Positions 6,452 to 25,617 of a DNA stretch of 48,819 nucleotides are shown here, piece by piece (within the stretch, counting starts at the first letter, position 1; each line of letters opens with the position of its first letter). The notes under the pieces are model-generated. The model was not told the DNA's origin, searched no databases, and saw only the letters and a list, made by a program, of their open reading frames with translations. A program made the translations under genes and the position numbers. The DNA is from Acidaminococcus intestini DSM 21505. Its GTDB lineage: Bacteria > Bacillota > Negativicutes > Acidaminococcales > Acidaminococcaceae. The stretch spans positions 1-48,819 of the forward strand of contig NZ_AULA01000016.1 of assembly GCF_000425045.1 (NCBI RefSeq), in the 5' to 3' direction.

Positions 6452-9400
6452 TTAGGAACGTCGTGTAATACAAAACAGACTTTCCAGCTGCTGCCGTTCC
6501 CAAGCATCCCGATGGGAGTCAAGGGCCTGCAGCGCTTTGGTCGCATAGCTGGACATACTTCCCGGGTAATGGATACTGATGGAACGTTGGGGATACTGAT
6601 GCTTGATCAGGGCAATCGCCATATAGACATAGCCCGCTTCCCGGGGATTATTCATCTTACTGAGTTTCTGCACAGCATCATCTAGGAAGCACTCAGCCTC
6701 CTTTTCCTGCTCCTTGCGCATGGAAAGCAGCGCCAAATAGGCTTCCACGATTGGATGGCGCCAGCAGAAATTATAACGGGGGAAGAGTTCATAGGCCTGG
6801 CGAAAATATTTCTCAGCCTGCTCATAACGACCCATGGCATAACAAACGACACCGGCATTACAGGAAAAGACAACCCAAGAGCTGTAGGCATCCTGGTCCC
6901 GTGCGTATTCCATGGCCTTGTCATAGTAGTCAAGGGCTTCTTGGTAACGGCCCATGCCGCGCCGGATTTCACCCAAATAATTATAGGCACCAGCAATATT
7001 CAGGGCATACCGCCGCTGGACGCTCTGGGTCACCATGAAAGTGGAAATTGATTCCTTGAGGAGCCGTTCCGCTTCAGAGAAATTCCCCTGCATGATCATG
7101 TTAAGCCCTTTGAGACGAAGGAGAATACCCATTTCCTTATGATAGTTGCACTCATCGGCTACATTGAGGGCAAGTTCCAGATAGTTCCGCATCTCTTCCG
7201 TATTGCCAATCTGGATGTCGTAGTAAATCATCTGCTTGTAGCCCATAAGGAGATAATCGAGATTTCGCACCTCGGAAGCAATCTCCACAAGGCTCAAGAT
7301 GTTCCGGACCCCTTTTTCATATTCACCGGTCCGGATATAATGGCGGCCCATAAGGTGCAGGTAAGTCATATCAAGGTCCTTGACCTCACTGGTTTCCCCA
7401 TAGGTCCGATGGATGGTGTGCATCATCTCATCGACTTCACTCACCAGTTCATCCAGGTGCAGTTCCAAAGAAGAGCTTTCAAGCCGGCTTTCTTCCACAC
7501 CGCCGGTCACGTCAAGGACAGGAAACAGTTCATTGCTGAAATTGAGGTAATACATGAGGGTCTTGAGCTTATAGCGCCCCATGTTCACCAGTTCCCCCGA
7601 CTCCTTATAGTGATATTCCAGATGGCGATAGATCCGGATATCCTGAGTGAAATGAGTGAGTCGTTTTTCCCAAAGTCCGGCCACGTAGCTATGAAGGATC
7701 CGCCATTTTTCCGGTGAAATCTGCTGTTTGACATAACTTGCCAGTTTCTGCTGAATGATTTCATAGAGCACTTCCGGCTGTTGGGGAATGGCCTTGATAA
7801 AGCCTGTTTTTTCCAGAACTTCCAGGCTTTCCAGGACCTGAAGGTTATTGAGGTGCATATATTCCGAAATCATGGCCAGCGGCGCGCCGTCGTAGAAAAG
7901 AGCGATGAAGTCAAGAATCTTGCGCTCTTCATCGGACAGAGCAGCACAGCCATTGCGGAAAATGGTTCGAACATTTTCCGTCAAGTTGTCGAGGCTCCCC
8001 GTCGTTTTCAAGGCCATAAGGTATTCCTTGAGAAGAAAAAGATTGCCCTCCGAATCCGCAAGGAGTTGACTAATGATGTCGTCTGTAAGGGGAACGCCCG
8101 GTTGGGAGGCTTCACTGACAGCCTTGACCGTGTCCTTCGTCAAGGGCAAAAGCTCCACACGGTGCACTTTTTCATACATGGAAACGGTTGAGACAAATTG
8201 CTGAAAGTCCTTGTCCTCACTGCTGCGAGCCGTGAGAAAAAAGAGGAAGCGATGGGATTTTTGATGAAGGATCAGGCTTGTCAGAAGCGACAGACTGAAG
8301 GGATCCATCCACTGCAGGTCTTCAAAAACAATCACGAACGGTCTTGCAGCCGCCACTTCTTCCAAAAGGGAATAAAAGGTATGGAAAATGGCATCAAATT
8401 TCAGCATTTCCTTGATTTCGCCAAGACCTGATTCATGTCCATCCGTCACGTCAAACTGTGGAAAAAGTTTGTAGATCCGGTTGGGATCGATGGTGGAGAC
8501 CCGAATATGTTCCTTTTGGATCAGGCTGCGCAGCGCATCAAGGATGCTTGTCCACGGACGTAGGAGAATATTGCGTTCCGGCTGAAAGCAATTGGTCTGG
8601 ACGATAGCAAATTCCGGAGGCAGCTGATCCAAAGCCGCATCTTTCACAAGGGTCTTGCCGCTGCCCGCATTGCCATAAAGGAATATGGCTGTGTTTTCCC
8701 CCGCCCTCACAAAGCGATCCAGTTGGTTCCGAAGCAGCTGGGTTTCTTTTTCCCGCCCCAAAACATTCGGTCCCAGGCTGCTCAAGGTGGAATGTCCCTT
8801 GGCTTCTTTTGCCGAAGCCTCCTTCATCATGGTTTCAATTTCTGGCGGTACGCTGCTCTGGAGTTCTTCACGGAAGAGTTTTTTCATCTCATCGTAAAGC
8901 TCCAACGCCTGCCGCATATTGCCCTGCTCACAATAAGTACGCAGCAAGAGGATATAGATGCTTTCATCATAGGGGTTATGGGTAATGAGCTGCCGGCCGT
9001 AGCGCGTGACTTTGGCCATGTTGCCAATGGCAACAGCTTCCTTGAGCTTTTGAAAAAGAACGTCCAGATAAAGGCCTTCAAGACGGTCACGTTCCGTAAG
9101 ATACCAGGATTCATATTCCGGGGAATCCTTCACATAAAAACCTTGGAGGAAACTTCCTTGGTAAAGGTCCAGCTGGTTGCCCGGGTCCCTTTCAAATTCC
9201 GTAACGTCCACCTTAAAGTCAATGTCCGGATTGACCTTGATAATCGCCTTCCGTGGGGAGACAAAGACATTGGGTCCCAAGAGCTTTTTCGTTTCATAAA
9301 TGGCATTGCGGAGATTTTTCCTAGCAATGGCATCGGATTTATCTCCCCAAAGGATTCCACTCAGCTCATCACGCATGACCGTTCCTTTGACGAGAATATA

Positions 9401-9502
9401 ATATACGAGGGCATTCACTTTATTGTACGGAAAAAAGACTTCCTGCCCATCTTTTTTGATTACTGGTGCGCCTAAAAAACGCGCCTCAAGAGTATGCGCC
9501 AT
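6452..9502 (-). CDS. SARP/BTAD-type transcriptional regulator with AAA ATPase and TPR domains
   Basis: 1016 aa. Residues 1-95 look like a winged-helix DNA-binding domain (LWGDKSDAIARKNLRNAI is typical), 95-225 a bacterial transcriptional activator (BTAD) helical domain, about 250-520 an AAA-type NTPase with Walker A (YGNAGSGKT) and Walker B (VIVFEDLQWMD), and the C-terminal half a series of TPR-like repeats ending in a helical tail. This is the build of large SARP/MalT-like activators that respond to a ligand or partner protein. The ATG at 9502 has GGAGGG and correct spacing; an ATG at 9550 lies too close to the promoter. It is the first gene of a likely four-gene unit and may control it. The effector is unknown. 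Confidence 0.8.
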   Translation of the reverse strand: MAHTLEARFLGAPVIKKDGQEVFFPYNKVNALVYYILVKGTVMRDELSGILWGDKSDAIARKNLRNAIYETKKLLGPNVFVSPRKAIIKVNPDIDFKVDVTEFERDPGNQLDLYQGSFLQGFYVKDSPEYESWYLTERDRLEGLYLDVLFQKLKEAVAIGNMAKVTRYGRQLITHNPYDESIYILLLRTYCEQGNMRQALELYDEMKKLFREELQSSVPPEIETMMKEASAKEAKGHSTLSSLGPNVLGREKETQLLRNQLDRFVRAGENTAIFLYGNAGSGKTLVKDAALDQLPPEFAIVQTNCFQPERNILLRPWTSILDALRSLIQKEHIRVSTIDPNRIYKLFPQFDVTDGHESGLGEIKEMLKFDAIFHTFYSLLEEVAAARPFVIVFEDLQWMDPFSLSLLTSLILHQKSHRFLFFLTARSSEDKDFQQFVSTVSMYEKVHRVELLPLTKDTVKAVSEASQPGVPLTDDIISQLLADSEGNLFLLKEYLMALKTTGSLDNLTENVRTIFRNGCAALSDEERKILDFIALFYDGAPLAMISEYMHLNNLQVLESLEVLEKTGFIKAIPQQPEVLYEIIQQKLASYVKQQISPEKWRILHSYVAGLWEKRLTHFTQDIRIYRHLEYHYKESGELVNMGRYKLKTLMYYLNFSNELFPVLDVTGGVEESRLESSSLELHLDELVSEVDEMMHTIHRTYGETSEVKDLDMTYLHLMGRHYIRTGEYEKGVRNILSLVEIASEVRNLDYLLMGYKQMIYYDIQIGNTEEMRNYLELALNVADECNYHKEMGILLRLKGLNMIMQGNFSEAERLLKESISTFMVTQSVQRRYALNIAGAYNYLGEIRRGMGRYQEALDYYDKAMEYARDQDAYSSWVVFSCNAGVVCYAMGRYEQAEKYFRQAYELFPRYNFCWRHPIVEAYLALLSMRKEQEKEAECFLDDAVQKLSKMNNPREAGYVYMAIALIKHQYPQRSISIHYPGSMSSYATKALQALDSHRDAWERQQLESLFCITRRS

Positions 9503-9567
9503 GATCCCTTTCCCTCCAATCATCCGGCACGCATCCGCATCAGATGTCATTACTCAAAGTCTCCTCC

Positions 9568-9762: not shown

Positions 9763-11013
9763 TTAAACGGAAGCCGTATGAACGAGCTCACCTTTCTTGA
9801 TGACTTTTTCTACAATGTTGACGCCTGTATGATAGGGGAGGAACTTATAGGAAGGATATTGAAGAATCGTCAGATCTGCCTGTTTACCGACTTCAATGGA
9901 CCCAATCCGGTCAGCTCTCCCTACGGCAGCAGCCCCATTCAAAGTAAGGGCCGTAATGGCTTCCTCGGCCGTCATATGCATATAGATCACAGCCAGGCCA
10001 AGCATGAGCGGTACGGAGAAGGTAAAGCCGCTTCCCGGGTTGAAATCCGTTGCAAGCGCCACGGCACAACCCGCGTCAATCATCTCCCGAGCCCGGGCAA
10101 AAGGTTCACGCAAGCAGAACGCGGTCGTCGGCAAAAGGGTCGAAACGACACCATTTTCAGCCATGGCCTTGATGCCTGCATCGGACGCGTGAAGGAGATG
10201 ATCTGCACTTGTGGCTTTAAGTTCACCAGCAAGTTCCGAACCGCCAAGGGATACGATCTCATCTGCGTGGATCTTGAGCTTGAACCCCATCTCCCGGGCT
10301 TTCTTAAGGTACTGACGGCTTTCGTCAACGGAGAAAACCCCTTCTTCACAGAAAATATCACAAAATTCGGCAAGGTTTTCCTTTTTGACAACAGGCATGA
10401 CTTCCTTTAGGAGGAAATCCAGAAACGCTTTGCTGCGCCCTTTATATTCAGGCGGGACCGCATGGGCCCCAAGGAAGGTAGAAACCAATTCAATCGGCTG
10501 GGAAGCATTCAGCTTCCGCGTCACATGAAGCTGCTTGATTTCTGTGTCGTAGTCCTGCCCATAACCGCTTTTGGCTTCGACCGTAGTCACACCCATGGCG
10601 AGCATCTTCTTGAGATGGTCCATGGCATGATCGGCAAGTTCCGCTTCCGACGCTTCCCGAGTTGCTTTCATGGTGTTAATGATTCCGCCGCCGCGGTTCA
10701 TGATGTCCATATAGCTCATCCCGCCCATACGCCAGAGAAATTCATCTGGACGATATCCGCCAAAAACAAGGTGGGTATGGGAATCAACAAATCCGGGGAG
10801 GACCGCTTTGTGAGCAGCATCGATCTGGTTTTCCCGGGGAACTTCCTTTTCCCATTGGGCTGGGTCACCAATTCCTTTGATGATTCCATCCTCGATAAAG
10901 ATGGAAGTATTTTCATAGACCTTGACATCACCCATTGCCTTGCCAAAGCAGGCCGAATGGCCTTGGGGCGTCACAATTTGGGATGCATTGCGAATCAATA
11001 CTTTTTTCGTCAT
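9763..11013 (-). CDS. hutI: Imidazolonepropionase
   Basis: Third enzyme of histidine degradation (416 aa): opens 4-imidazolone-5-propionate to N-formimino-L-glutamate in the cytoplasm. It is an amidohydrolase-fold enzyme of the usual length. The metal-binding HTH at 79-81 (GFVDSHTHLVFGG), the His in KIHADE near 250, and the Asp in ATDFNPGS near 325 are all present. The start is supported by AAAGGAG seven bases upstream. It follows hutU on the same strand, separated by 121 bases that hold a hairpin, and is the last gene before a terminator. Confidence 0.95.
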   Translation of the reverse strand: MTKKVLIRNASQIVTPQGHSACFGKAMGDVKVYENTSIFIEDGIIKGIGDPAQWEKEVPRENQIDAAHKAVLPGFVDSHTHLVFGGYRPDEFLWRMGGMSYMDIMNRGGGIINTMKATREASEAELADHAMDHLKKMLAMGVTTVEAKSGYGQDYDTEIKQLHVTRKLNASQPIELVSTFLGAHAVPPEYKGRSKAFLDFLLKEVMPVVKKENLAEFCDIFCEEGVFSVDESRQYLKKAREMGFKLKIHADEIVSLGGSELAGELKATSADHLLHASDAGIKAMAENGVVSTLLPTTAFCLREPFARAREMIDAGCAVALATDFNPGSGFTFSVPLMLGLAVIYMHMTAEEAITALTLNGAAAVGRADRIGSIEVGKQADLTILQYPSYKFLPYHTGVNIVEKVIKKGELVHTASV

Positions 11014-13462: not shown

Positions 13463-15025
13463 TCAGAAGAACTTGAGGTCTGCCTTATCTTCAACGGCTT
13501 CAAGGATGTCACCACGCTTGACGACGTCCGTAATCTTTTCGAGTTCCTTGAACATTTCAATATCCTTATCATAAGCGATGAAGGCATTGGTCTTACGAAC
13601 CGTGTCGTAAGCAGCCTGTGTACCATCACCCAGTTTGAAGCCTTCACCAGCACGCAGGTCGATAGCTTGGCAGGCGGCGAGGATTTCCGTTGCAATCACG
13701 CGGCGGACGTTGAAGCAGATTTCTCCCGCTTTGCGGGCTGCCGCAGCGCCCATGGAAACAAGATCTTCCTGATTTTCGCAGCTTGGGATGGAGTCGACCG
13801 ATGCCGGATGGGCAAGAACCTTGTTTTCACTGACAAGGGCAGCGGCTGCATATTGGGTGATCATGAAGCCGGAGTTCAGGCCCGGATGAGCAACGAGGAA
13901 GGACGGGAACCCACTGAGGGAGTTGTTGATGGTCCGTTCCAAACGACGTTCCGAAACGTTGGCAATTTCCGAAAGACCAATACCAAGGAAGTCAAAAGGA
14001 AGGGCCATCGGTTCACCATGGAAGTTGCCTCCGGAGATGACTGCGCCATCAGGCAGGACAATGGGGTTATCCGTAGCGGAGTTGATTTCGATATCAACCT
14101 TTTCTTTGACAAAGCCCAGGGCATCCTTGCTGGCGCCGTGGATCTGCGGTACGCAGCGGAGGGAGTACGGATCCTGAACCTTCAGTTCCCCCTGATGGGT
14201 AACGTAGGTAGAGTTTTTCAGGAGGCTGCGGATGTTGTAGGCCGTATCAAGCTGGCCGCGATGAGGACGGATCGTATGGAGCCGTTCGTCAAAAGCATCA
14301 ATGATGCCGCGGTTAGCTTCCATCGTAAGGGCAGCAGCGATATCACTCTGCTTGAGAAGGAGCATGCCATCCCAAAGGGCGAAGGTACCCATAGCCGTCA
14401 GGATCGGAGTCCCATTGATGAGGGCCAGACCTTCCTTGGCAACAAGGCGGATGGTCGGGATCCCAGCGCGATCCATGGCTTCCTTGCCGCTCATCAGTTT
14501 GCCCTGATATTCAGCATCACCCAATCCAAGCATCGGAAGGACCATATGAGCTAACGGAGCAAGGTCACCGGAAGCCCCGAGGGACCCTTTTTCGGGAATA
14601 TAGGGATGAACACCCTTATTGATCATATCGACGAGAACATTCAAAGTTTCCAAACGGATACCGGAGTACCCTTTGACCAAAGCATTGGCGCGGATCAGCA
14701 TGGCAGCGCGGGTCACTTCACGGGACAGGGGATTGCCATAACCGCAGGAATGAGTGCGGATGAGGTTTTCCTGGAGCTGGCTGCAGTCTTCCTTGGAAAT
14801 GGAAACACGGCAAAGGGAACCGAACCCGGTTGTCACCCCGTAAACAACTCTTTCATTATCTACGATATCATCGATAAGGGCACGGGAAGCCTTGATGCGG
14901 TCAATAGCGTCAGGATCGACCTTGATCTTGGCGTCGTAGCGGCTGACAGCCACCAATTCTTCGAGGGAAAGGTCATTTCCGGTCAGGACTACTTCTTTAA
15001 TGTTCTTTACATCTTTCAACAGCAT
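13463..15025 (-). CDS. hutH: Histidine ammonia-lyase
   Basis: First enzyme of histidine degradation (520 aa): removes ammonia from L-histidine to give urocanate. It carries the complete MIO site, Ala151-Ser152-Gly153, in GSLGASGDLAPLAH. The catalytic Tyr in YGVTTGFG (62-69), the Asn in ALINGT, the Tyr and Arg in QDPYSLRC and the Glu in ENQEDLVSMG are all kept, so it should be an active HAL. It differs in these positions from the second HAL-like gene at 17125-18651. It lies 130 bases downstream of the permease gene, with a weak hairpin between, and is probably co-transcribed with it. Confidence 0.96.
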   Translation of the reverse strand: MLLKDVKNIKEVVLTGNDLSLEELVAVSRYDAKIKVDPDAIDRIKASRALIDDIVDNERVVYGVTTGFGSLCRVSISKEDCSQLQENLIRTHSCGYGNPLSREVTRAAMLIRANALVKGYSGIRLETLNVLVDMINKGVHPYIPEKGSLGASGDLAPLAHMVLPMLGLGDAEYQGKLMSGKEAMDRAGIPTIRLVAKEGLALINGTPILTAMGTFALWDGMLLLKQSDIAAALTMEANRGIIDAFDERLHTIRPHRGQLDTAYNIRSLLKNSTYVTHQGELKVQDPYSLRCVPQIHGASKDALGFVKEKVDIEINSATDNPIVLPDGAVISGGNFHGEPMALPFDFLGIGLSEIANVSERRLERTINNSLSGFPSFLVAHPGLNSGFMITQYAAAALVSENKVLAHPASVDSIPSCENQEDLVSMGAAAARKAGEICFNVRRVIATEILAACQAIDLRAGEGFKLGDGTQAAYDTVRKTNAFIAYDKDIEMFKELEKITDVVKRGDILEAVEDKADLKFF

Positions 15026-15155: not shown

Positions 15156-16466
15156 TTACCCGAGAATCATGGCGCCAATGACGCCGCCAATCAGCAGGGT
15201 AATATCGTAGAAGATAAAGGTAGGTACACAGGTGTCCCAAATATGGTTGTGCTGACCATCTGCATTCAGACCGGACGTCGGGCCCAAGGTAGAGTCAGAA
15301 GCCGGGGAGCCAGCATCACCCAAAGCGGCAGCAATACCGATGAGCAGGATGATGGAGCCAGTCGAGAAACCAAGTTTGTAGCCCATAGGAATGTAAATGG
15401 AGGCGACAACCGGGATGGTCCCGAAGGAAGTCCCAATCCCCATAGTGATGAGCAGCCCAACAAGGAGCATGACGATAGCACCGCTCAGCTTGGTGTTGAT
15501 GACAGCCGTCGTCGCATTGACAAGGGATTCCACAGAGTGGGTTTCACGAAGGACCTGAGCATAGCCAGCAGCTACGAGCATAACGAAAGCGATGAAGCCC
15601 ATCATGGCAACGCCGCCATCAACGTATTTGTCGATTTCTTTCCATTTGATGGCACCCGTAAGGATCATGACAAGAAGTCCACAGGAAGCACCAATCGGCA
15701 GGGATTCGAAATGAAGCTGGGCAACAAAGGCAACGATGGCAGCAGCAAGGGCCTTCCAGCAATCAGCCGACATCTTGACATCTTCTTCGGAAATTTCATT
15801 GGCACCAGCAATGGGCAGATCTTCATATTCACGGTCTCTCGTGCCATAGAGCATAACGGCCAAGACAAGACCCACAAGCATGGAAGCACCGCCGATCCAC
15901 ATAACGGAAGAAATATCTCCAATTCCTACATCCACTTTATTGGCAACCATCTGATCTTTGATGATGGTCATGAAAAGCAGACCAAACCCAACAGGCAGGG
16001 AAACATACGGAGCTTTCAGGCCGAAGGTCAGTGCACAGGCAACGGCACGGCGGTCCAGCTTCATTTTGTTCATAACGTGCAGCAGGGGCGGGATCAAGAT
16101 AGGAATGAAAGCAATATGAACAGGAATCAAGTTCTGGGAGAAGCAGGCAAAGAAAGCAATGGTGAAGCAGAAAAGGATCTTCTTTGTGCCGACAGCCTTT
16201 GCAATCTTGCGGGCTGCAATATCAGCCAACCCGGAGCGGCCAATGGCAACGGCCAAGATTCCCAGCAGAATGTAGCTCAAAGCCGTTTCCGAGTTTCCCC
16301 CCATCCCAGCAATAAGGGTGCTGAATGTCTTGGGAAGATCCATGCCGCCCGTCAATCCAGCAATGACACCGGAAATCAGGATGGCCAGCAGTACGTTCAT
16401 TTTCATCAAGCAGAGGGCAGACATGACAACAACAGATATGACAATTGGGTTGGTCAAAATATCCAT
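15156..16466 (-). CDS. Probable histidine/amino-acid permease (Na+/H+ antiporter family, YuiF-like)
   Basis: 436 aa with about 11-12 hydrophobic segments. It belongs to the ion-transporter superfamily that includes NhaC- and YuiF-like proteins; the two repeated re-entrant regions are recognisable by LIPVHIAFIPILIPPLL near residue 115 and by SFGTIPVVASIYIPMGYKLG and ALGDAGSPASDSTLGPTSG in the C-terminal half. Many members are labelled Na+/H+ antiporters but are found beside amino-acid catabolic genes. Its place directly upstream of hutH makes histidine uptake the best guess. The start has AAAAGGAG upstream. Substrate and coupling ion are inferred from context only. Confidence 0.75.
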   Translation of the reverse strand: MDILTNPIVISVVVMSALCLMKMNVLLAILISGVIAGLTGGMDLPKTFSTLIAGMGGNSETALSYILLGILAVAIGRSGLADIAARKIAKAVGTKKILFCFTIAFFACFSQNLIPVHIAFIPILIPPLLHVMNKMKLDRRAVACALTFGLKAPYVSLPVGFGLLFMTIIKDQMVANKVDVGIGDISSVMWIGGASMLVGLVLAVMLYGTRDREYEDLPIAGANEISEEDVKMSADCWKALAAAIVAFVAQLHFESLPIGASCGLLVMILTGAIKWKEIDKYVDGGVAMMGFIAFVMLVAAGYAQVLRETHSVESLVNATTAVINTKLSGAIVMLLVGLLITMGIGTSFGTIPVVASIYIPMGYKLGFSTGSIILLIGIAAALGDAGSPASDSTLGPTSGLNADGQHNHIWDTCVPTFIFYDITLLIGGVIGAMILG

Positions 16467-17124: not shown

Positions 17125-18651
17125 TCAGTTCAGTTTCTTTCCCATCCCTTTTTCTGCCCAGTCGATGATCCTGCCTTCATGGATCATATCCCGCAGCCAC
17201 TCGATATGGGGATAAAGGAACATATCATTTTCCATGACGGGTACTTTCTTGCCAATTTCCGCTAAAATCCCAGCAGACGCTTTTCCCCGCTTGATACCAG
17301 GTTGAACAAATGGCTGGGCCTCATAAACAGACAGGAGTTCAATGGCAAGGATATATTCAAGTTTTTCTGCTGCAATGAGCGCTTTTTTGGTTGCATTATA
17401 CCCCATGGCCACGTAATCTTCTTGATTGCCGCAAGTCGGTGTATTGTCAATGCTTGCCGGGGTTGACAGGATGCGCATTTCGTTGAGAAGACCAGCCTGG
17501 GTATATTGAGGAATCATAAGACCGGAATTAAGGCCCGGATTTTTGATCAGGAACCATGGATGACCTGAAAGACTGCCATCAATCAGACGATTGTTTCGCC
17601 GCTCCGACATCTTTGCCAGCATGGTGGCTGCGATAACAGATGAATCCATGGCAAGCCCGACGTAGGAAGAATCCGGATTGCAGGCTGAAATAACGTCAGC
17701 GTCCTTCTTCCCTGGCCAGATAATTGGATTGTCGCAGCAGGAATTGATCTCCGTTTCGATGCTTACGAGCGCGTCGTTCAATGTCTTTTTTGCTGCTCCA
17801 TGAAGCTGGGGAATACAGCGCAGCGAAAGGGCATCCTGAACCCGGCTTCCTGCCGCCTTTTTGATGACAGCAGAATCAGCAAGAAAATTTCTGACGTTTT
17901 CCGCTGTTTTTCCTTGATCTAGATGAGGGCGCACAGACATGACCCGCTCATCAAAAGCATTCATGACGCCCTCGAGGGCTTCTACACTCATGGCGCCAAT
18001 AACATCAGCCGTTCTGGCCGCCTTAAGGAAATCATAAAGAGCGATGGCTGCCATTGCAGTCGGTGATGTCGTTCCCGAAACGAGCGCAAGCCCCTCCTTA
18101 CTTGATAGTTCAAGAGGAGAAAGGCCGACTTTCTTAAGCGCCTCCGCACCAGATAAAAGCTCCCCGCCTGACCACGCCTTCCCTCGCCCCGTAAGGACAA
18201 GGGCCATATGGGCCTCAGGGCTTAAATAGCCGACACTTCCCTCCCCCGGGGCCCAGGGGATCACTCCGAGATTGAGGCACTGCCGGATCTGCTCCAATAC
18301 GCACAGGCGCACACCGCTATAGCCCTGTCCCAAGTTCTGGAGCATCATAAGCAGCGTGCCCCGTACCACTTCTTCTGAAAGGGGCGCCCCCACAGATGTC
18401 GAATGGGAAAGGATGATATTGGTCTGGAGCTGGGCCGTTTCCTTCTTATCGATGGCTTTGGTGCAAAGGGCACCAAAACCGGTTGTCACCCCGTACATGA
18501 CTTTTTCTTCATCCACCCATTTTTCCACCAAAGCCCGGGACGCATTGACCCGGTTTCGATAAGTTGCCGAAAATTCCACCTTGGCGTGACGGCGAACAAT
18601 GTCTATAAATTGATTGAGGCAGAGGTGTTTGCCCAGACAAATCGCTCCCAT
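17125..18651 (-). CDS. MIO-less HAL-family lyase, candidate ergothionase
   Basis: 508 aa with the full-length histidine ammonia-lyase fold, but the cofactor-forming Ala-Ser-Gly is gone: GSVGYLSPEAHMA (138-150) replaces GSLGASGDLAPLAHM. The Asn that contacts MIO is Ser192 (LALVSGT) and the Tyr of QDPYSLRC is Ala274 (QDALSLRC). Tyr53 (YGVTTGFG), His83 (LSHS), Arg278 and Glu411 (GNQEDYVAMG) are kept, so it is adapted and not decayed. Ergothionase, which eliminates trimethylamine from ergothioneine, is the known MIO-independent member of this superfamily; a substrate with a trimethylammonium leaving group does not need MIO. The gene starts 4 bases after a BCCT (betaine-type) transporter. I infer ergothionase; another betaine lyase or an inactive paralogue is possible. 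Confidence 0.7.
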   Translation of the reverse strand: MGAICLGKHLCLNQFIDIVRRHAKVEFSATYRNRVNASRALVEKWVDEEKVMYGVTTGFGALCTKAIDKKETAQLQTNIILSHSTSVGAPLSEEVVRGTLLMMLQNLGQGYSGVRLCVLEQIRQCLNLGVIPWAPGEGSVGYLSPEAHMALVLTGRGKAWSGGELLSGAEALKKVGLSPLELSSKEGLALVSGTTSPTAMAAIALYDFLKAARTADVIGAMSVEALEGVMNAFDERVMSVRPHLDQGKTAENVRNFLADSAVIKKAAGSRVQDALSLRCIPQLHGAAKKTLNDALVSIETEINSCCDNPIIWPGKKDADVISACNPDSSYVGLAMDSSVIAATMLAKMSERRNNRLIDGSLSGHPWFLIKNPGLNSGLMIPQYTQAGLLNEMRILSTPASIDNTPTCGNQEDYVAMGYNATKKALIAAEKLEYILAIELLSVYEAQPFVQPGIKRGKASAGILAEIGKKVPVMENDMFLYPHIEWLRDMIHEGRIIDWAEKGMGKKLN

Positions 18652-18655
18652 ACGA

Positions 18656-20245
18656 TCACTTTCCTTCCCTTTCTACTTGGTCAACACTGTCTACAATATC
18701 CTTTTTCGTCTGATTGTCGAAGAAGAAGACCTTGACAGCAGCCAGTACCTGAAGAATAAAGATGGCTAGAACCACAAATCCCCCACAGGCTGCAAGGAAC
18801 TTGACCCCGTCAACTCCTTGGGCACCGCCGCCAAAAGCAACCATGATGCAGGCAATGGCGCCGATGGAAACGCCCCAGACCACCTTCTGCCAAAGAGCCG
18901 GTTCCTCATCGTGACGGGCACCAGCCGTGCAAAGTGCGGCAATCGTCGTGGACATCGTATCGGCCGTCGTAGAGAAGGCAGCGATGAGTGTGACAATGAT
19001 AACAGGAACCAGGAGCGATCCCAAAGGAATTGCCTGAAGGAAGGTCCAGATCCCAGCCACGGCGCCGCCGGTCTTAATGGCCCCTACGATGTCAACACGG
19101 CCGGAAAGCTGCCAATCAAGAGCGGTGCCGCCCCAAACGGCAAACCAAACAAGGCCAAAGACGGCCGGCAAGATCCAGTTGATGAGCAAAAATTGCTTAA
19201 CGGTGCGGCCATAGGCGATCATGGCAAAGAAAATCCCCATGAGCGGTGCATAGGCAATCCAAATGGCCCAGTCATACATGGTCCACCAGGTCACAAGCGC
19301 CTTGCCGCCTGCAATATAGGGATCAAGCCCCCATGTCCAAAAACGGTCAAGCCAGTAGCCCACACCTACATTGGCTAGGTTCAAGATATAAACCGTCGGG
19401 CCAATGATAATAAGCAGGAAAAGCAGCAAATAAAAAATCTTTGTCGTCAGGTTGGCCAGCCACTTGATTCCCCGATCAATGCCAAGAACCGAAGCAATTG
19501 TGAACGTCGCCGTAATAATAGCCGTCAGGATGATCCAGACAGAAGGACCCTGACTGATACCATAAGCGGCGGTAAGGCCAGATCCAACAAGGGCAAGGCC
19601 CGCGCCTAAGGAAGCCGCAAGACCAAGACCAATGGCTAGGACGGAAAGAGTATCGACAACGGACTTAAAGACGCCTTTTGTCACCTTTTCCCCGAATAAA
19701 GGTGTTAGGGAAGCAGAGACCGAAAGTTCTTCATGCCGATTGTAATACATGTAGGCAATGATCACACCGCTCAAGGCATACATGGCATAGGGAATGAAGG
19801 TCCAGTTATAGAAGCAGCGGGCCATGGAAAAAAAGACAGCTTCTTGGGAATAGGGCTCAATCCCCGAGCCTTCCAGTTCACCATAGATATTTCCCAAATA
19901 AATGATAGGTTCATTGACACCATAGGTAATGAGGCCAGTTGCAATTCCACCGGTAAGCGTCATGGCAAACCAAGCGCCAAAGGAAAATTTTGCCTTGGCA
20001 TGGGGCCCGCCGAAGCGAATCTTGCCCAGGGGAGAAAATGCCAAGATTGTAATGAGGAGCAACGTCCCTAAAGCGACCCATTGATAGAGCCATCCAAACG
20101 TTTCCAATGACCAGCCAAAAATAGCGGACGTAACTTTTGTCAGCCATGCATTATTGACAACACCTAAGATGGCGGCGCCGCCAATCACAAGGAAGCAGGG
20201 AATGAACACATCCCAGCGTACAGCTCTTTCCTTCTTTCCATCCAT
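18656..20245 (-). CDS. BCCT-family transporter, candidate ergothioneine/betaine uptake
   Basis: 529 aa, about 12 transmembrane helices, the BetP/CaiT/OpuD fold. The family's glycine-rich segment is present (GLGLAASLGAGLALVG, 206-221). The aromatic-box segment, usually WTxFYWAWW in BetP and CaiT, reads WWTMYDWAIWIAY (320-332): an aromatic residue is replaced by Asp325 and one Trp by Ile, so the bound cation is probably not plain glycine betaine or carnitine. The N-terminus lacks the long regulatory extension of osmosensing members, fitting a nutrient carrier. The start has GGAGGT nine bases upstream. It is the first gene behind a sigma-54 promoter and is followed at once by the MIO-less lyase, so I infer import of that enzyme's substrate. 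Confidence 0.82.
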   Translation of the reverse strand: MDGKKERAVRWDVFIPCFLVIGGAAILGVVNNAWLTKVTSAIFGWSLETFGWLYQWVALGTLLLITILAFSPLGKIRFGGPHAKAKFSFGAWFAMTLTGGIATGLITYGVNEPIIYLGNIYGELEGSGIEPYSQEAVFFSMARCFYNWTFIPYAMYALSGVIIAYMYYNRHEELSVSASLTPLFGEKVTKGVFKSVVDTLSVLAIGLGLAASLGAGLALVGSGLTAAYGISQGPSVWIILTAIITATFTIASVLGIDRGIKWLANLTTKIFYLLLFLLIIIGPTVYILNLANVGVGYWLDRFWTWGLDPYIAGGKALVTWWTMYDWAIWIAYAPLMGIFFAMIAYGRTVKQFLLINWILPAVFGLVWFAVWGGTALDWQLSGRVDIVGAIKTGGAVAGIWTFLQAIPLGSLLVPVIIVTLIAAFSTTADTMSTTIAALCTAGARHDEEPALWQKVVWGVSIGAIACIMVAFGGGAQGVDGVKFLAACGGFVVLAIFILQVLAAVKVFFFDNQTKKDIVDSVDQVEREGK

Positions 20246-20358: not shown

Positions 20359-20374
20359 TGCAAAAGCCATGCCA
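20359..20374 (-). promoter_or_regulatory. Sigma-54 (-24/-12) promoter of the BCCT-lyase operon
   Basis: On the minus strand TGGCATGGCTTTTGCA matches the consensus TGGCAC-N5-TTGCA with one change, and keeps the invariant GG-N10-GC spacing. Transcription would start near 20347, about 100 bases before the BCCT start codon. The adjacent gene encodes a sigma-54 activator with a GAFTGA loop. Confidence 0.82.
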
Positions 20375-20444: not shown

Positions 20445-20487
20445 AAGCGCTTGGCATGAATTCATTTTCCCATCATTCCAAGCGCTT
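20445..20487. promoter_or_regulatory. Paired dyads, candidate upstream activating site
   Basis: AAGCGCTTGG (20445-20454) and CCAAGCGCTT (20478-20487) are exact inverted repeats. Each contains the 8-base palindrome AAGCGCTT, and the two are 33 bases (about three helical turns) apart. The centre lies about 120 bases upstream of the predicted sigma-54 start site, the usual place for activator binding. Confidence 0.7.
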
Positions 20488-20542: not shown

Positions 20543-22228
20543 CTATTTATCTAATAGCCTATCCCCGCTTTCCGTTTCCTGGAACTTCTTCATATGATAC
20601 TGGAAATTTTGCCGCGTAAGACCTAGGGCCTCCGCTGCTTTTGTTACGTTTTTCCCGCAGGATAGATAGGTATTCCACAAAAGGTTCCGTTCAAAATCGT
20701 CCATTTGCTCGGCAAAGGTCCTTCCCACTGCTGCAGGAACCGGATCCATCTCTTCCCGTCCGGTTTCCTTTCGTTCCAAAGGAGCGGAATGACGCAGAAA
20801 ATAAGAGGGAAAATCACGTTCATCGAGTATGCCATTTTGGGATACACTGATGGCATAGCTCAAGATATGAAAGAGTTCCCGCACGTTGCCTGGCCAATCA
20901 TGTTCCAAAAGACGGCGCCAAAACTTGGACGTTAGTTCATGGATGGGCTGAGCCGTCAGATGTGGATGGTGGTCGATAAAATATTGGACGAGCTCCGGCA
21001 GATCTTCCATCCGTCTGCGGAGAGGCGGAATTTCAAGGATAAGGGAAGATAAACGATAAAAAAGATCCTGACGCATCTTCCCCTCTTGACTTAAGCGATA
21101 CACATCCTCATTGGATGAGGAAAGGATCCGGACATCAATGGGAATAGAACGGGTACTTCCTATCCGCTGCAGCGTCTTTTCCTGCAGGACGCGGAGCAAT
21201 TTTGCCTGCATGAGAGGACTCATGGAGTTCACTTCGTCGAGAAACAAGGTTCCGTGATTTGCCGCTTCGATGAGACCAATCTTATCCGTGGCGCCTGTAA
21301 AAGCACCCTTGACCGTACCAAAGAGCATACTGTCAATGAGGGTTTCCGGAAAAGCCGCACAGTTCACGGCGATAAATTTTTCCTTCTTCCGGGAGCTATA
21401 TTGATGGATGCTCTGGGCAAGGATTTCCTTTCCCGTCCCCGTTTCCCCTTCAATGAGGATGTTCATGTCCCGAAGCGCCATTTTCTGGGCAAGGCGAAGG
21501 GTTTCCCGAAGAACGCTTGAAGACCCGATAAAATCGTCAAAGGTGTAGTGGGCATCACTTTTGACGGTAAAATCTTCTGTCAGATGCCGCATCAGGATGG
21601 CTTCCACTTCATGAAGAACCTGTAGCTGAGTCTTGACAGACTTCATGTCCCGCTCCACGGAAAAGGCCCCAATCAGACTGCCCTTTTCGTCAAAGACAGG
21701 TTCTGCTTCTACAACGGTCATGAGCTCCTTTCCAGTCGTTGACTTGTAGGAGTCGTAGCGGTGATGGACGGGATTTTCGCTTTTAAGAGCTGTAAAGACA
21801 GAACTGTAATCCGGATCCAAGGAAAAAACATCAAGGAGAGCCTGTCCTTCCACACTGTCTTCAAGGGGAATTCCCAGGAAGCGGCGGCTCGTTTGATTGA
21901 AAAAGGAGATGCCGCCGCTTTTGGTGTAGAGCTGGATAATATCCGGTGAGGCATCGAGAGCAGCAGCCATGAGCTTTTTTTGAATGTCTTCCTTCTTTAT
22001 AAGGAAACAAGTTCCCTGGGGGATACCAAAGGAAGTATAGCCATACGTTTCTCCTTCATAGGAAAGGGTCATATCCTTTGCATTCCAAATAAAGCCTGGC
22101 AGGCTCCCCACTTTCTGACCTACATAAAAGGCCGCGTCCCGCTGTCCAGTCCAGGCCATGCCAAAAAATACCTGAAAAATAACACCGTCACCGCCAAGAA
22201 AAATGGCCAGGTCAAAGATTGATGTCAT
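20543..22228 (-). CDS. Sigma-54-dependent transcriptional activator with PAS domain
   Basis: 561 aa. Residues 1-85 are an N-terminal sensing region of unclear fold, about 90-195 a PAS domain, about 230-460 the AAA+ sigma-54 activation domain with Walker A GETGTGKE (261-268), the sigma-54 contact loop GAFTGA (308-313) and Walker B GTLFLDEV, and the end is a Fis-type helix-turn-helix (VTKAAEALGLTRQNFQYHMK). I start it at ATG 22228, preceded by AGAGGTGAG; the longer frame begins before the predicted promoter. It lies directly upstream of the dyads, the -24/-12 promoter and the BCCT-lyase pair, all on the same strand, so it is very likely their activator. The PAS or N-terminal domain may bind the substrate. 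Confidence 0.88.
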   Translation of the reverse strand: MTSIFDLAIFLGGDGVIFQVFFGMAWTGQRDAAFYVGQKVGSLPGFIWNAKDMTLSYEGETYGYTSFGIPQGTCFLIKKEDIQKKLMAAALDASPDIIQLYTKSGGISFFNQTSRRFLGIPLEDSVEGQALLDVFSLDPDYSSVFTALKSENPVHHRYDSYKSTTGKELMTVVEAEPVFDEKGSLIGAFSVERDMKSVKTQLQVLHEVEAILMRHLTEDFTVKSDAHYTFDDFIGSSSVLRETLRLAQKMALRDMNILIEGETGTGKEILAQSIHQYSSRKKEKFIAVNCAAFPETLIDSMLFGTVKGAFTGATDKIGLIEAANHGTLFLDEVNSMSPLMQAKLLRVLQEKTLQRIGSTRSIPIDVRILSSSNEDVYRLSQEGKMRQDLFYRLSSLILEIPPLRRRMEDLPELVQYFIDHHPHLTAQPIHELTSKFWRRLLEHDWPGNVRELFHILSYAISVSQNGILDERDFPSYFLRHSAPLERKETGREEMDPVPAAVGRTFAEQMDDFERNLLWNTYLSCGKNVTKAAEALGLTRQNFQYHMKKFQETESGDRLLDK

Positions 22229-22258
22229 AGGCTCACCTCTTTTTGCATTGTTTTTTTC

Positions 22259-22287
22259 ATTGTAACGGGATCTCCAATTAAGCACAA
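22259..22287 (-). promoter_or_regulatory. Candidate promoter of the sigma-54 activator gene
   Basis: TTGTGC (22282-22287) and TACAAT (22259-22264), 17 bases apart, on the minus strand. The leader is about 25 bases. This would be an ordinary housekeeping promoter. Confidence 0.5.
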
Positions 22288-22321
22288 TAAAAGAAAGGCG
22301 GAGAACCCGTTTTTCCATACA

Positions 22322-22360: not shown

Positions 22361-22981
22361 TTAGAGATTGACTTTGCCAAGAAGGGCCTGTTCCTTCCCA
22401 TCGACTTCTTTCTCGATGGCGGCCATTTTACCATTAAGGTCATCTACAAAAGTCTGGTCCTTAATGCTTCCCAAATTAATCTTGACATTAAGGAAGGCAC
22501 CGCGGACAGCGGCCCGAGTGTTCATCGCAGCCACGGCACCGTCCGTGACAGCATTGGTGTTACCGCGCGTAATGACCACATCAGCCAGGGCAAAGAGTTC
22601 ATTCGCCGTTTCACCAACTTTAAAAGGAACCAGAGCAGCGCCCTTAGTGGCTTCTTGGATGGCTTTGCTGCGAACAGCCTTTTCCTCGTCCGACCCTTTA
22701 GGCATCCTGAAGGCTGCCATGATCTTATTGAAGGCATTGCTGTCTTCGTCAATGAGGGCCAGGAATTGATTCTTGAGGGAAGCTGCTTTTTCAGCCACTT
22801 CCTTCATTTCCTTTTCCACAGCTGCATATTTTTCCTTGCCAAGGGTCAGATGAGCGACCATTTCGATGAGGGCTGCAGCAGAAGCCGCATTCAGGGCAGC
22901 AATGCTGCCGCCGCCCGGTGCGGGAGAAGAAGAACTCGTTTCCTGGACGAATCCCTCCACCGTCATTTTCTTTAATTCCAT
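22361..22981 (-). CDS. fchA: Formimidoyltetrahydrofolate cyclodeaminase
   Basis: 206 aa. Converts 5-formimino-THF to 5,10-methenyl-THF, releasing ammonia. The N-terminal SSSPAPGGGSIAAL segment and the all-helical pattern are typical of this family, which exists as a separate protein in anaerobes and as the C-terminal half of FTCD in animals. The start has GAGGAATCAAGAT before ATG. It lies 29 bases after fhs and shares its operon with ftcD, so it processes the one-carbon unit taken from formiminoglutamate. It ends just before a strong terminator. Confidence 0.93.
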   Translation of the reverse strand: MELKKMTVEGFVQETSSSSPAPGGGSIAALNAASAAALIEMVAHLTLGKEKYAAVEKEMKEVAEKAASLKNQFLALIDEDSNAFNKIMAAFRMPKGSDEEKAVRSKAIQEATKGAALVPFKVGETANELFALADVVITRGNTNAVTDGAVAAMNTRAAVRGAFLNVKINLGSIKDQTFVDDLNGKMAAIEKEVDGKEQALLGKVNL

Positions 22982-23010: not shown

Positions 23011-24681
23011 TTAGAAGAGACCCGAAATCTTGCCTGATGCATCGATGTCCATATTGAGAGCAGCCGGCTTCTTCGGCAGGCCTGGCATGACCATGATATT
23101 GCTTGTCTGGCAGACAATGAAGCCAGCCCCATTGGAAACACGGACATCCTGGACAGTGATCCGGAACCCCTTGGGTGCCCCCAGAAGGGCCGGGTTGTCA
23201 CTGAGGGAGTACTGGGTCTTGGCCACGCAGATAGGCAGTTTATCAAGGCCCCAATCTTCGAGCAGTTTGATCTGTTTCTTGGCGTTAGGCGTAAAATCAA
23301 CCCCATCACCGCCATAGACCTTTGTCACAATCGCTTCAAGTTTATGCGGAATCGTATCGTTTACATCGTAGAGTTCAACCGGTTTGGACGTATCATGTTC
23401 GAGCAGATCAACCAGCTTGTTTGCCATGTCGATACCGCCTTCGCCACCTTTTTCCCAGCACTCGTTGAGGCTGACATCCACACCGTAGCTTTCGCATTTC
23501 TTAAGGAGCATATCGATTTCGGCCGGTGTATCCGTAGCGAATTTATTGATGGCAACCAGGACCGGCAGTCCAAAGCCGCGCATATTCTCGACCTGTTTGG
23601 CAAGGTTCGTAAACCCATCGCTGACAGCCTGGACGTTTTCCTGGGACAGTTCCGTTTTCTTGACGCCGCCATGCATCTTGAGGGCACGGATTGTAGCAAC
23701 AACGACAACCGCGTCAGGATACATATTGCCATAATGGCATTTGATGTCAAGGAATTTTTCAGCGCCAAGATCAGCACCGAAACCAGCTTCCGTAACGGTA
23801 ATATCACCCAGTTTAAGAGCCATCTTGGTAGCAAGAAGAGAGTTGCATCCGTGGGCAATGTTCGCAAATGGACCGCCATGGATGATAGCCGGCGTATGTT
23901 CCAGCGTCTGGACGAGGTTCGGTTTGATGGCGTCCTTCATGAGCATGGCCATAGCCCCTTCGCAGCCCAATTGATGAACGTAGACCGGGTTCCCATCAAG
24001 GTCCGGGCCAATGACAATACGGCCAAAGCGTTCCTTCAGGTCTTCAATATCATAGGCCAGGCAAAGGATAGCCATGATTTCGGAAGCAACAGTGATCATG
24101 AACCCGTCTTCGCGCACAAAACCGCAGGGTTTGCCGCCTAGACCGACAACAACGTGACGGAGGGCTCGGTCGTTCATATCCATGACGCGGCGCCAAGAAA
24201 TCTGACGGGCATCGATCCGCAGTTCGTTGCCTTGATGGATATGGTTGTCAATCATGGCAGACAACAAATTATTGGCAGCCGTAATAGCGTGCATATCCCC
24301 CGTAAAATGCAGATTGATATCGTCCATAGGAACAACCTGCGCATAGCCGCCGCCAGCAGCACCGCCCTTAATTCCAAACACAGGGCCTAAGGAAGGCTCG
24401 CGGAGTGCTACGATGGCTTTTTTGCCAATCTTGTTAAGGGCTTGGACAAGGCCAATGCTCGTTGTGGATTTACCTTCCCCAGCAGGGGTGGGCGTGATGG
24501 CCGTTACCAGGACCAATTTCCCATTGGGTTTCTTTTCCAAGCGTTTCAGTACATCAAGGGAAATCTTTGCTTTATAGTGACCATATTGTTCCAGTTCTTC
24601 GGGATGGATGTCCAGTTTTTCAGCAATCTTACTGATTGGCTCCATAACATTTTTTTGTGCAATCTCGATATCGCTAAACAC
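23011..24681 (-). CDS. fhs: Formate-tetrahydrofolate ligase
   Basis: 556 aa, usual length. Interconverts formate + ATP + THF and 10-formyl-THF + ADP + phosphate. The nucleotide-binding loop [16 protein letters not shown] is at about 63-78, and the family's conserved [21 protein letters not shown] stretch follows. In this operon, between ftcD and fchA, the enzyme most likely runs backwards: the formimino carbon of histidine becomes 10-formyl-THF and its cleavage yields ATP and formate. The cyclohydrolase step needed between FchA and Fhs (FolD) is not in the window. The formate channel at 26429-27058 fits the same idea. Confidence 0.96.
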
Positions 24682-24711: not shown

Positions 24712-25617
24712 TTATTCTTCTGCATCAAGCAGACGTTTTTCAAGGATTTCGTCCATATCGAAGTTTTCGATTTGGAGATAGTACTCAGCTGCCATAAGCA
24801 GGCTCTTCATAGGAACCGTCCCAATGACTTCAGAACCAGCTACGGCAACGCCATAACGGCGGGCTTCCATCTTGACCATTTCAAAGGCGCGGTAAACAGC
24901 GGTCTTTTCATAGTTGACAAGGTTCATGGAAACCTGGGTCATGTTGCGGTCTTCCAGCTTCAGGCCAATGGCCTTGACATAGTGAAGACCGCCGCCGATA
25001 TTGCGGACTTTCTTAGCAATGGCTTGAGCGATTTCAACATCCGGCGTATGCAGGTTGACGTTGAAAGCAATGAGGGGAACGCGGGCGCCAACGGCGGAGC
25101 AACCGCTTACAGCGTTCATTTCGCTGGGGCCATAATCCGGTTTCCATTCCGGTTCCTTGATCTTATCAAAGAAGCCTTCGTACTGGCCTTTGCGGATCGT
25201 AGCCAAGTTGCGCCGACCTTCACTCGTAGCGGCATCTTCATAAAGATAGACAGGAATGCCCATTTCACCATAAGCCTTACCGACCTTGTTGGCGATTTCG
25301 ACACATTCATCCATGGTTACGCCCATAACCGGTGTAAAGGGAACAACATCAACGGCACCAAAACGAGGATGAGCCCCATGATGTTCACGCATATCAATCA
25401 AACCAATGGCTACCTTTGCCATATTGATGGCAGCTTCCGTTACCGCTTCAGGAGACCCGATGATGGTAACAACGGAACGATTGTGGTCAGGGTCGCTGGA
25501 ATAATCCAGGATCTTCAGCCCGGAAATCTTGCGGGCTTCATCAACAATCTTTTCTACCTTTGCTTTGTCACGGCCTTCACTGAAATTCGGAACAAATTCA
25601 ACCAACTTTTTAGCCAT
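24712..25617 (-). CDS. ftcD: Glutamate formimidoyltransferase
   Basis: 301 aa. Transfers the formimino group of N-formimino-L-glutamate (the HutI product) to THF, giving glutamate and 5-formimino-THF. It corresponds to the N-terminal transferase half of animal FTCD: FVPNFSEGRD at 8-17 and EHHGAHPRFGAVDVVPF, with the catalytic-type His pair, near 100-115. It is a stand-alone transferase, as in many Firmicutes, with the deaminase encoded separately as fchA. It is the first gene of the operon and shares an upstream region with the divergent hutD gene. Confidence 0.95.
   Translation of the reverse strand: MAKKLVEFVPNFSEGRDKAKVEKIVDEARKISGLKILDYSSDPDHNRSVVTIIGSPEAVTEAAINMAKVAIGLIDMREHHGAHPRFGAVDVVPFTPVMGVTMDECVEIANKVGKAYGEMGIPVYLYEDAATSEGRRNLATIRKGQYEGFFDKIKEPEWKPDYGPSEMNAVSGCSAVGARVPLIAFNVNLHTPDVEIAQAIAKKVRNIGGGLHYVKAIGLKLEDRNMTQVSMNLVNYEKTAVYRAFEMVKMEARRYGVAVAGSEVIGTVPMKSLLMAAEYYLQIENFDMDEILEKRLLDAEE

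Follow-up and report, generated by a model that had tools for sequence, protein, structure and literature searches.

The question raised by this stretch of DNA (contig NZ_AULA01000016.1 of Acidaminococcus intestini DSM 21505, 48,819 nucleotides, the whole of which is called the window below) is what a second paralogue of histidine ammonia-lyase (HAL), here termed P0001, could do in a histidine utilization (hut) cluster, when it has lost the residues forming the 4-methylideneimidazole-5-one (MIO) group and a canonical HutH (P0002) is encoded nearby. On the basis of its residues and gene context we lean towards P0001 being a hercynine (N-alpha-trimethyl-histidine, histidine betaine) trimethylammonia-lyase, which would form urocanate and trimethylamine and feed HutU and HutI. 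With considerably more confidence the substrate can be placed among the N-alpha-trimethylated imidazole acids, ergothioneine included. Ergothionase is the known precedent for a MIO-free trimethylammonia-lyase on the HAL fold.

The MIO-less active site

The first-pass annotation of this DNA had claimed that residues 138-148 of P0001 read GSVGYLSPEAH and that the MIO-forming triad was lost together with coordinated changes of the active site. The minus strand of the window at 18208-18240 translates to exactly this peptide, in which a single Tyr142 stands in place of the Ala-Ser-Gly triad, while the canonical HutH of the window has GSLGASGDLAPLAH. In the alignment with P. putida HAL, whose numbering is used for the relatives below, ASGD is replaced by this one Tyr and the Ser-Gly columns 143-144 are a gap. 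Tyr53, His83, Arg278 (R283 in HAL) and Glu411 (E414) are retained as it had been stated, and so are Gln277 and the Ser82-His83 pair. The announced replacement of Asn (Asn195 in HAL) by Ser192 was seen as well, nevertheless that of Tyr by Ala274 had to be corrected: HAL Tyr280 aligns with Leu275, and Ala274 is the counterpart of HAL Pro279, where T. acidophilum HAL has Ala as well. Further substitutions are Phe329 to Pro326, His330 to Asp327 and Leu149 to Glu146, and Tyr383 corresponds to HAL position 386, which is Lys in the T. denticola ergothionase. Ser-Gly at 143-144, and likewise Asn195 with Tyr280, are present in all 28 MIO-type rows.

According to passages of PMC11432326, the Y52F, H82L, N194D and E411D mutants of G. 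kaustophilus HAL (GkHAL) had no activity on histidine, and the Ser-His pair is the substrate-switch motif of that enzyme. P0001 is not expected to be a histidase, because it has neither MIO nor the Asn that GkHAL needs. It also fails both NCBIfam HutH cut-offs (TIGR01225, 495.1 vs 539.15 bits; NF006871, 506 vs 524 bits).

Among 59 genomes of the taxonomic family, matches at 1e-100, a level that canonical HutH also reaches, were found in nine, all of one genus. Intact P0001 orthologues are present in seven of these nine Acidaminococcus genomes (G000-G006), in G007 (85% complete) HutH alone matches at this level, and in the genome scan described below A. provencensis carries a P0001-type gene. 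In five orthologue pairs the nonsynonymous rate (dN) was 0.17-0.19 against a synonymous rate (dS) above 2 or saturated, and in an unsaturated pair dN was 0.051 and dS 0.427. A frameshift, pseudogene or assembly error is ruled out by the intact gene in seven of the nine genomes and by this purifying selection. The BCCT-lyase module described below can nevertheless be lost, because in the genus relative G008 (L168, 8573-9901) a deletion has left the beginning of the BCCT gene fused to the last part of the lyase gene, so that both members of the module are gone at once.

The AlphaFold2 model of P0001 (47 sequences) has a pLDDT (predicted local distance difference test score) of 93.4, 86 in the loop region 131-150, and a pTM (predicted template modelling score) of 0.94. 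In structural alignment the highest scores belong to tyrosine aminomutase, a MIO enzyme (Z 47.0), followed by T. acidophilum HAL (7tqr; Z 46.0, root-mean-square deviation (rmsd) 1.8), P. putida HAL (1b8f; Z 45.2, rmsd 1.9, 498 residues) and T. denticola ergothionase (6s7j; Z 43.7, rmsd 2.4, 492 residues).

Relatives were collected from 84,980 species genomes, which were scanned with an alignment of nine sequences as query. The best 80 rows, which were kept, comprise 79 distinct loci, namely at least 33 MIO-less relatives (at least 43% identity), occurring in Bacillota, Acinetobacter, Pseudomonas, Microbacteriaceae and others, and 46 canonical ones. Two of the 33 (L055, L060) are truncated ahead of the loop and owe their assignment to identity (70-72%); the Ser-Gly-Asp loop was seen in 44 of the 46, the pattern having found no loop in L081 and L100. 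The loop block 138-151 and columns 195, 279, 280, 329, 330 and 386 were removed before the tree (87 rows) was built. Fourteen of the 101 candidate rows were left out: near-duplicates, partial rows, a MIO-type enzyme with Gln at 414 (L139_9) and an ergothionase-like row (L141_5) that departs from the ergothionase pattern by Lys at 283 and by Ile at 330.

In the best tree the Asp330 clade (43 rows, P0001 included) and the ergothionase type (10 rows) stand apart from each other, each with 100/100 support. A G-S-[VL]-[GA]-Y loop with a three-residue deletion is found in 43/43 rows of the Asp330 clade, and so are Tyr53, His83, Tyr142, Glu149, Arg283, Asp330, Gln385, Tyr386 and Glu414; since Tyr142 and Asp330 named the group, the other columns are the sole independent observations. 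The recurrence of Tyr142 with the deletion, of Glu149 and of Asp330 in all 43 rows across phyla argues that the changes in P0001 are not due to chance or error. Position 195 is Ser in 28 rows, Asn in 14 and Thr in one, and position 280 is Leu in 31, Tyr in eight and another residue in four, thus these two changes are not universal in the clade. In the approximately unbiased (AU) test neither a single clade of all Y-loop rows (p 0.305) nor one of all MIO-less rows (p-AU 0.16) was rejected; the MIO-free trait may have arisen more than once, in the Asp330 clade, in Pseudomonas HutH1 and in a Klebsiella plasmid lyase, besides ergothionase.

Taken together, purifying selection, the modelled HAL fold and Tyr53, His83, Arg283 and Glu414 in all 43 relatives support an active site that has been repurposed rather than decayed, as the first reading had suggested. 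P0001 could still be a histidase of slow or residual activity, or have no catalysis and serve HutH as a regulator or structural partner, and its place 2 kb from HutH in one cluster, the preserved HAL fold and the occurrence of at least one further HAL-family match in each of the 27 genomes searched would suit such a role. We regard this as improbable in view of the Ser at the Asn position needed by GkHAL, of Tyr53, Arg283 and Glu414 in 43/43 rows, of the strong purifying selection and of the canonical HutH being inside the locus in only 3 of the 38 MIO-less loci compared below.

Neighbouring genes and the proposed reaction

The minus-strand cluster of the window reads FtcD, formate-tetrahydrofolate ligase, FchA-like protein, sigma-54/PAS regulator, BCCT transporter (P0003), P0001, Na+/H+-antiporter-family transporter, HutH, HutU and HutI (Table 1). 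The BCCT gene lies 4 nt upstream of the P0001 gene, and the canonical HutH (13463-15025) follows 2.1 kb downstream, in line with the distance of about 2 kb noted at first; P0001 and HutH are the only two HAL-family matches in the genome. The nearest solved relatives of P0003 by sequence are BetP and DddT; none of the listed NCBIfam BCCT models is matched above its cut-off, thus none assigns a substrate. No XDH-type (xanthine-dehydrogenase-type) gene, EgtD-type methyltransferase or MTTB was found in the window's genome. Together with the absence of the ergothionase Lys from all 43 rows of the clade, the lack of a third HAL-family gene and of an XDH-type gene speaks for a sulfur-free substrate.

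Gene context was compared between 38 MIO-less and 46 canonical HutH loci (mean length 14.5 and 14.0 kb), which are partly dependent: L057 equals L152, L035 and L149 belong to one genome, L044, L146 and L147 to another, and several end at contig ends. In the other genomes genes were called by a home-made open reading frame (ORF) caller, which missed or shortened some of them. A BCCT gene is present in 12 of the 38 MIO-less loci and in none of the 46 canonical loci (Fisher p 2.4e-5, with differing taxonomy and partly dependent loci). An MTTB-family methyltransferase is encoded in L037, and SolA-type N-methyl amino acid oxidases in 6 of the 38 loci, both of which would suit methylated amines. The neighbours suggest a quaternary ammonium substrate.

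The identity of the neighbouring HutU proteins bears on the product, and NCBIfam models tell urocanase from thiourocanate hydratase and S-methyl-thiourocanate hydratase. All eight HutU tested (window, L038, L040, L046, L047, L054, L144, L176) pass the urocanase cut-off and none passes any thiourocanate cut-off; further neighbouring HutU are encoded in L029, L044, L050, L057 and L065. Among the eight, those of L040, L046, L047, L054 and L176 are the informative ones, because the window, L038 and L144 also hold a canonical HutH, and none was called in these five loci. In L040 (Acinetobacter), five consecutive genes encode HutU, HutI, a protein of the arginase family, one of the glutamate dehydrogenase family and the MIO-less lyase, with no HutH there, and a HutH-like match is located elsewhere in this genome. 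The neighbours thus suggest urocanate as the product.

The adjoining betaine-type transporters would also fit a lyase for another aromatic betaine, for example tryptophan or phenylalanine betaine, but His83 and Glu414 in 43/43 rows, Ser82 in P0001 and the association with HutU and HutI make this very improbable. Another histidine derivative, N-alpha-methylated or ring-modified (ring-methylated or oxidised hercynine, ergothioneine sulfonate), with paralogue clades splitting several betaines among themselves, would be in accord with the three Y-loop paralogues in L046, with the two in L028 besides an ergothionase-type gene, with the clade differences at 195, 280 and 329, and with the SolA-type N-methyl amino acid oxidase neighbour in 6 of the 38 loci, all of the Bacillus-like subclade. 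One such oxidase was checked and matches the NCBIfam N-methyl-L-tryptophan oxidase model. This explanation is not a likely one, as the P0001 subclade (24 rows) is uniform at 53, 83, 283 and 414 and the neighbouring HutU that were tested are normal urocanases.

An MFS transporter is encoded next to the lyase in 8/8 loci of the Bacillus-like subclade (L047-L054), and HutU with HutI occur in three of the eight (L047, L050, L054). Beside the same MFS type, gene 6 of L150 (Peribacillus) encodes a MIO-less protein (GSLGYLNHQAH) with His330, which the best tree places as the sister of the Asp330 clade (96/91). Some Y-loop lyases (L037, L044, L170) have an aconitase X gene as a neighbour. In L170 (8981-16882) aconitase X stands with a 3HCDH-family dehydrogenase, a 180-aa protein, whose start resembles that of a protein in L037, and an ergothionase-type ORF (646 aa) with an apparent N-terminal extension.

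If P0001 is a hercynine lyase, the betaine would be imported by the BCCT transporter. Trimethylamine is already a good leaving group, so that no MIO adduct would be needed. With the roles taken from the HAL literature, Tyr53 would take the beta proton, Arg283 would anchor the carboxylate and His83 with Glu414 would hold the thione-free imidazole. The acids at 330 (Asp327) and 149 (Glu146) together with Tyr142 would line the former MIO/ammonia site. The urocanate made by P0001 could then be broken down completely by HutU, HutI and the one-carbon genes of the cluster, and trimethylamine would exit the cell.

Several observations weigh against the hercynine assignment. BCCT was not seen in 26 of the 38 MIO-less loci, and HutU and HutI are in 11 and 9 of them, compared with 23 and 25 of the 46 canonical ones; the canonical control set comes mostly from other taxa, and the context is correlative. 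The window cluster has its own canonical HutH, so the link to urocanate there could stem from HutH alone. The MTTB of L037 is under the trimethylamine-methyltransferase cut-off (297 vs 525), and P0001's own genome lacks an MTTB. In L046 an XDH-type trio stands beside three MIO-less paralogues, BCCT and HutU, therefore some members could handle a sulfur compound, and one 2-thiouracil-desulfurase-family gene, on another contig of the window's genome, gives a thiourocanate route a small probability. Furthermore, within the Asp330 clade Asn195 and Tyr280 are retained in the 14/43 and 8/43 rows mentioned, and the Pseudomonas and Klebsiella proteins described below are without the Asp330/Glu149 pair.

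Table 1. Features of the hut cluster region, with coordinates in the window
Feature	Position	Strand	Basis
HutI, imidazolonepropionase	9763..11013	-	TIGR01224 475 bits, cut-off 298
HutU, urocanate hydratase, 682 aa	11135..13183	-	TIGR01228 429 bits, cut-off 375
Canonical HutH P0002, MIO motif GSLGASGDLAPLAH	13463..15025	-	TIGR01225 643 bits, cut-off 539
Na+/H+ antiporter-family transporter, between both HAL paralogues	15156..16466	-	Pfam Na_H_antiporter 1.3e-63
MIO-less HAL paralogue P0001, 508 aa, proposed hercynine trimethylammonia-lyase	17125..18651	-	Pfam Lyase_aromatic 7.5e-159, residue table, model
GSVGYLSPEAH, P0001 residues 138-148; one Tyr replaces ASGD of the MIO loop, Glu146 new	18208..18240	-	translation, alignment
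BCCT-family transporter P0003, 529 aa, proposed betaine importer	18656..20245	-	Pfam BCCT 2.8e-109
Sigma-54-type promoter-like site TGGCATGGCTTTTGCA, upstream of BCCT gene	20359..20374	-	pattern match, <=1 mismatch
Inverted repeat of 15 nt (93%) with a 13-nt spacer, upstream of sigma-54-like site	20445..20487	.	repeat search
Sigma-54-dependent regulator with PAS domain	20543..22318	-	Pfam Sigma54_activat 1.3e-62, PAS, HTH_8
FchA-like cyclodeaminase/cyclohydrolase	22361..22981	-	NF045657 195 bits, under cut-off 275
Formate--tetrahydrofolate ligase	23011..24681	-	NF010030 929 bits, cut-off 652
FtcD, glutamate formimidoyltransferase	24712..25617	-	TIGR02024 467 bits, cut-off 221

The BCCT-lyase pair is probably switched on by the adjacent PAS/sigma-54 regulator through a sigma-54-type promoter before the BCCT gene. 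The site TGGCATGGCTTTTGCA, 129 bases ahead of the BCCT start, has one mismatch and is the sole such match in the window; taken alone it was rejected as proof, about 2.3 matches with at most one mismatch being expected there by chance. The support is comparative for this reason. Among 20 BCCT or lyase starts at separate places, seven have a site with at most one mismatch within 350 bases (the window's own site and L146, whose start was miscalled, are not among the seven), against 4 of 357 unlabelled genes (Fisher p 1.1e-7, rows not independent). A sigma-54 regulator was called in six of the seven site-bearing loci, the exception being L149; it is also present without a good site in L024, L030, L031, L037 and L048, and the site of L045 has two mismatches. 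The inverted repeat upstream is a candidate activator site.

Elsewhere in the window's genome there is a second BCCT gene (G000:C26:4267-5685), 27% identical to P0003. Downstream of hutI a 1032-aa protein (6452-9550, minus strand) has weak matches to SARP-type and TPR regulators, and its relatives adjoin ergothionase-type genes (L138, L140, L142) and a hut cluster (L145).

Pseudomonas and Klebsiella relatives

A second HutH is present in Pseudomonas BGr12 and in 19 of 24 other genomes of the genus (20/25), the others at 72-81% identity, and its loop reads GSVGYLTHMAH in all 12 loci returned (L144, 6367-7896; L153-L164). ProW- and ProX-type genes adjoin it in all four loci examined, ProV was called in two of the four, and urocanase is in the cluster; the ProXW-type neighbours were checked against NCBIfam in one locus. 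The protein is accepted by the NCBIfam HutH subfamily model (548 vs 524 bits) and not by the equivalog (537 vs 539). Like P0001, it has Tyr for the MIO triad and Leu280; unlike P0001, it keeps His330 and Asn195, has Met at 149 and takes a separate place in the best tree. The order in L166 is HutU, cytosine-purine-type permease, ProX, ProW, ProV, HutH1, and a review gives the same order for Pseudomonas. The hutH1 of P. fluorescens SBW25 is reported to be dispensable for histidine. Judged by gene order, the MIO-less second HutH of Pseudomonas is probably this hutH1.

The K. pneumoniae plasmid NZ_CP092400.1 (L176, 1-12214), typed as conjugative, carries a hut cluster with a MIO-less lyase (GSVGYLIATAH), the sole HAL-like place found in this record. 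The cluster consists of hutI, a cytosine-permease gene, hutU, a betaine-type ABC transporter, the lyase, hutD, hutC and formimidoylglutamate deiminase; the OsmF-like binding protein and the ProV-like ATPase that adjoin the lyase are both under cut-off. The Tyr loop, Leu280, Tyr53, His83, Arg283 and Glu414, together with the adjacent urocanase and betaine-type transporter, are common with P0001, whereas Gly at 195 and 329, His330 and Thr at 149 are different, the identity being 36%; the protein is not among the 87 rows of the tree. Among 72,556 plasmid records, DNA relatives of its gene turned up in 203, of which 191 come from Klebsiella and 163 contain at least 80% of the gene; two of 5,426 E. 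coli genomes have such relatives too. Of the seven plasmid matches that were read, H1 and H14 have the Y loop, while three belong to the ergothionase type and the other two are canonical.

Since both proteins are without Asp330 and Glu149, this pair is not essential to all MIO-less Y-loop enzymes. They fit the hercynine-lyase reading as two further MIO-less lineages. It is conceivable, though we put it forward tentatively, that a set of hutH-labelled genes encodes MIO-free histidine-betaine lyases of a hercynine utilization system, in which an importer and a lyase would deliver urocanate to the hut pathway. A Rhizobium ruizarguesonis plasmid (L025, 7932-9437) encodes a further MIO-less lyase, which has Arg at 83 and Val at 195 and lies between a repressor annotated as hutC and an ABC binding protein for glycine betaine; the substrate of this lyase is perhaps another betaine.

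Significance and comparison with ergothionase

No hercynine lyase was among the matches listed from the open-access PubMed Central literature, passages about hut genes in other papers say nothing of a MIO-less HutH, and the passages of an ergothioneine/trimethylamine N-oxide (TMAO) paper (PMC13405746) contain no description of P0001-type proteins. If the hercynine proposal is true, the common database label histidine ammonia-lyase conceals another reaction, the Pseudomonas hutH1-hutXWV module gains a function and the dispensability of hutH1 is explained, and Klebsiella plasmids carry an unrecognised nutrient trait. There would also be an overlooked bacterial source of trimethylamine, the TMAO precursor, missed by surveys of ergothionase, and the HAL fold would have gained a cofactor-free elimination through a short loop deletion and a few pocket changes.

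The ergothionase of T. denticola (6s7j) resembles P0001 in having a HAL fold without MIO, in keeping Tyr53, His83, Arg283 and Glu414, and in Ser at 195, Leu at 280 and an acid at 330 (Glu in ergothionase, Asp in P0001); a BCCT gene adjoins ergothionase-type genes as well (4 of 6 loci). The two proteins are 26% identical. The differences are found at position 386 and in the loop, Lys and SSIGEGDITTLSH in ergothionase against Tyr and GSVGYLSPEAH in P0001, and in Glu149, which the T. denticola enzyme does not have. Lys386 belongs to the QKT motif, which we take to bind the thione; it is absent from 43/43 rows of the Asp330 clade, all of which have Tyr, and present in 8/10 ergothionase-type rows. 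XDH-type neighbours are a feature of the ergothionase type, which forms its own clade apart from P0001 in the best tree.

Passages of PMC13405746 state that ergothionase has been definitively identified in few microorganisms only, and mention a thiourocanate desulfhydrase. Ergothionase-type genes (48-62% identical to 6s7j) were recognized in Geosporobacter, C. mobile, UBA6806 and two uncultured Firmicutes metagenome-assembled genomes, and these five genomes hold a MIO-less lyase at another place. The ergothionase-type genes there adjoin XDH-type genes, with three subunits called in L137, L138 and L140 and two in L142 and L143, the large subunit of L138 being supported by an NCBIfam model. Those of L028 (802-2313) and L170 have Asp at 386, so they are not clean ergothionases. 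In Acidaminococcus G003 (L172, 7401-15882) FtcD, formate-tetrahydrofolate ligase, FchA, the MIO-less lyase, an XDH-type trio supported by Pfam, an ergothionase and BCCT stand in one cluster, and this ergothionase is 82% identical to 6s7j with the full residue pattern, Lys386 included. The comparison with ergothionase that the first-pass annotation had proposed thus held for the missing MIO, Ser195, Leu280 and the acid at 330, and it did not extend to Lys386, to the loop or to the coexistence of both enzymes. P0001 as a typical ergothionase was rejected because of the Tyr for Lys386 and of the separate ergothionase gene in several related genomes.

P0001 could also be an ergothionase with an altered pocket, which would release trimethylamine from ergothioneine and leave the thiourocanate to be desulfurated by a separate enzyme. 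This is favoured by the four likenesses to the T. denticola enzyme just named and by the adjoining BCCT. It is also favoured by the XDH-type trio of L046, in whose genome search no ergothionase-type match was found, by the 2-thiouracil-desulfurase-family gene, by the single MIO-less clade that was not rejected (p 0.16) and by the 2 of 10 ergothionase-type rows which are likewise without Lys386. We consider it rather unlikely, given that Lys386 is in 0/43 rows of the clade against 8/10, that the two clades are separate at 100/100 in the best tree, that a true-pattern ergothionase occurs in the same cluster (L172) and ergothionase-type genes elsewhere, by XDH-type genes, in the five other genomes, and that the adjoining HutU are urocanases by model. 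With the exception of L046, this is most naturally read as a division of work, in which ergothionase would act on the sulfur-containing betaine and the Y-loop enzyme on the one free of sulfur. With a true HutH 2 kb from P0001 and an ergothionase in the cluster of a sister species, an unusually clean comparison is offered by this genus.

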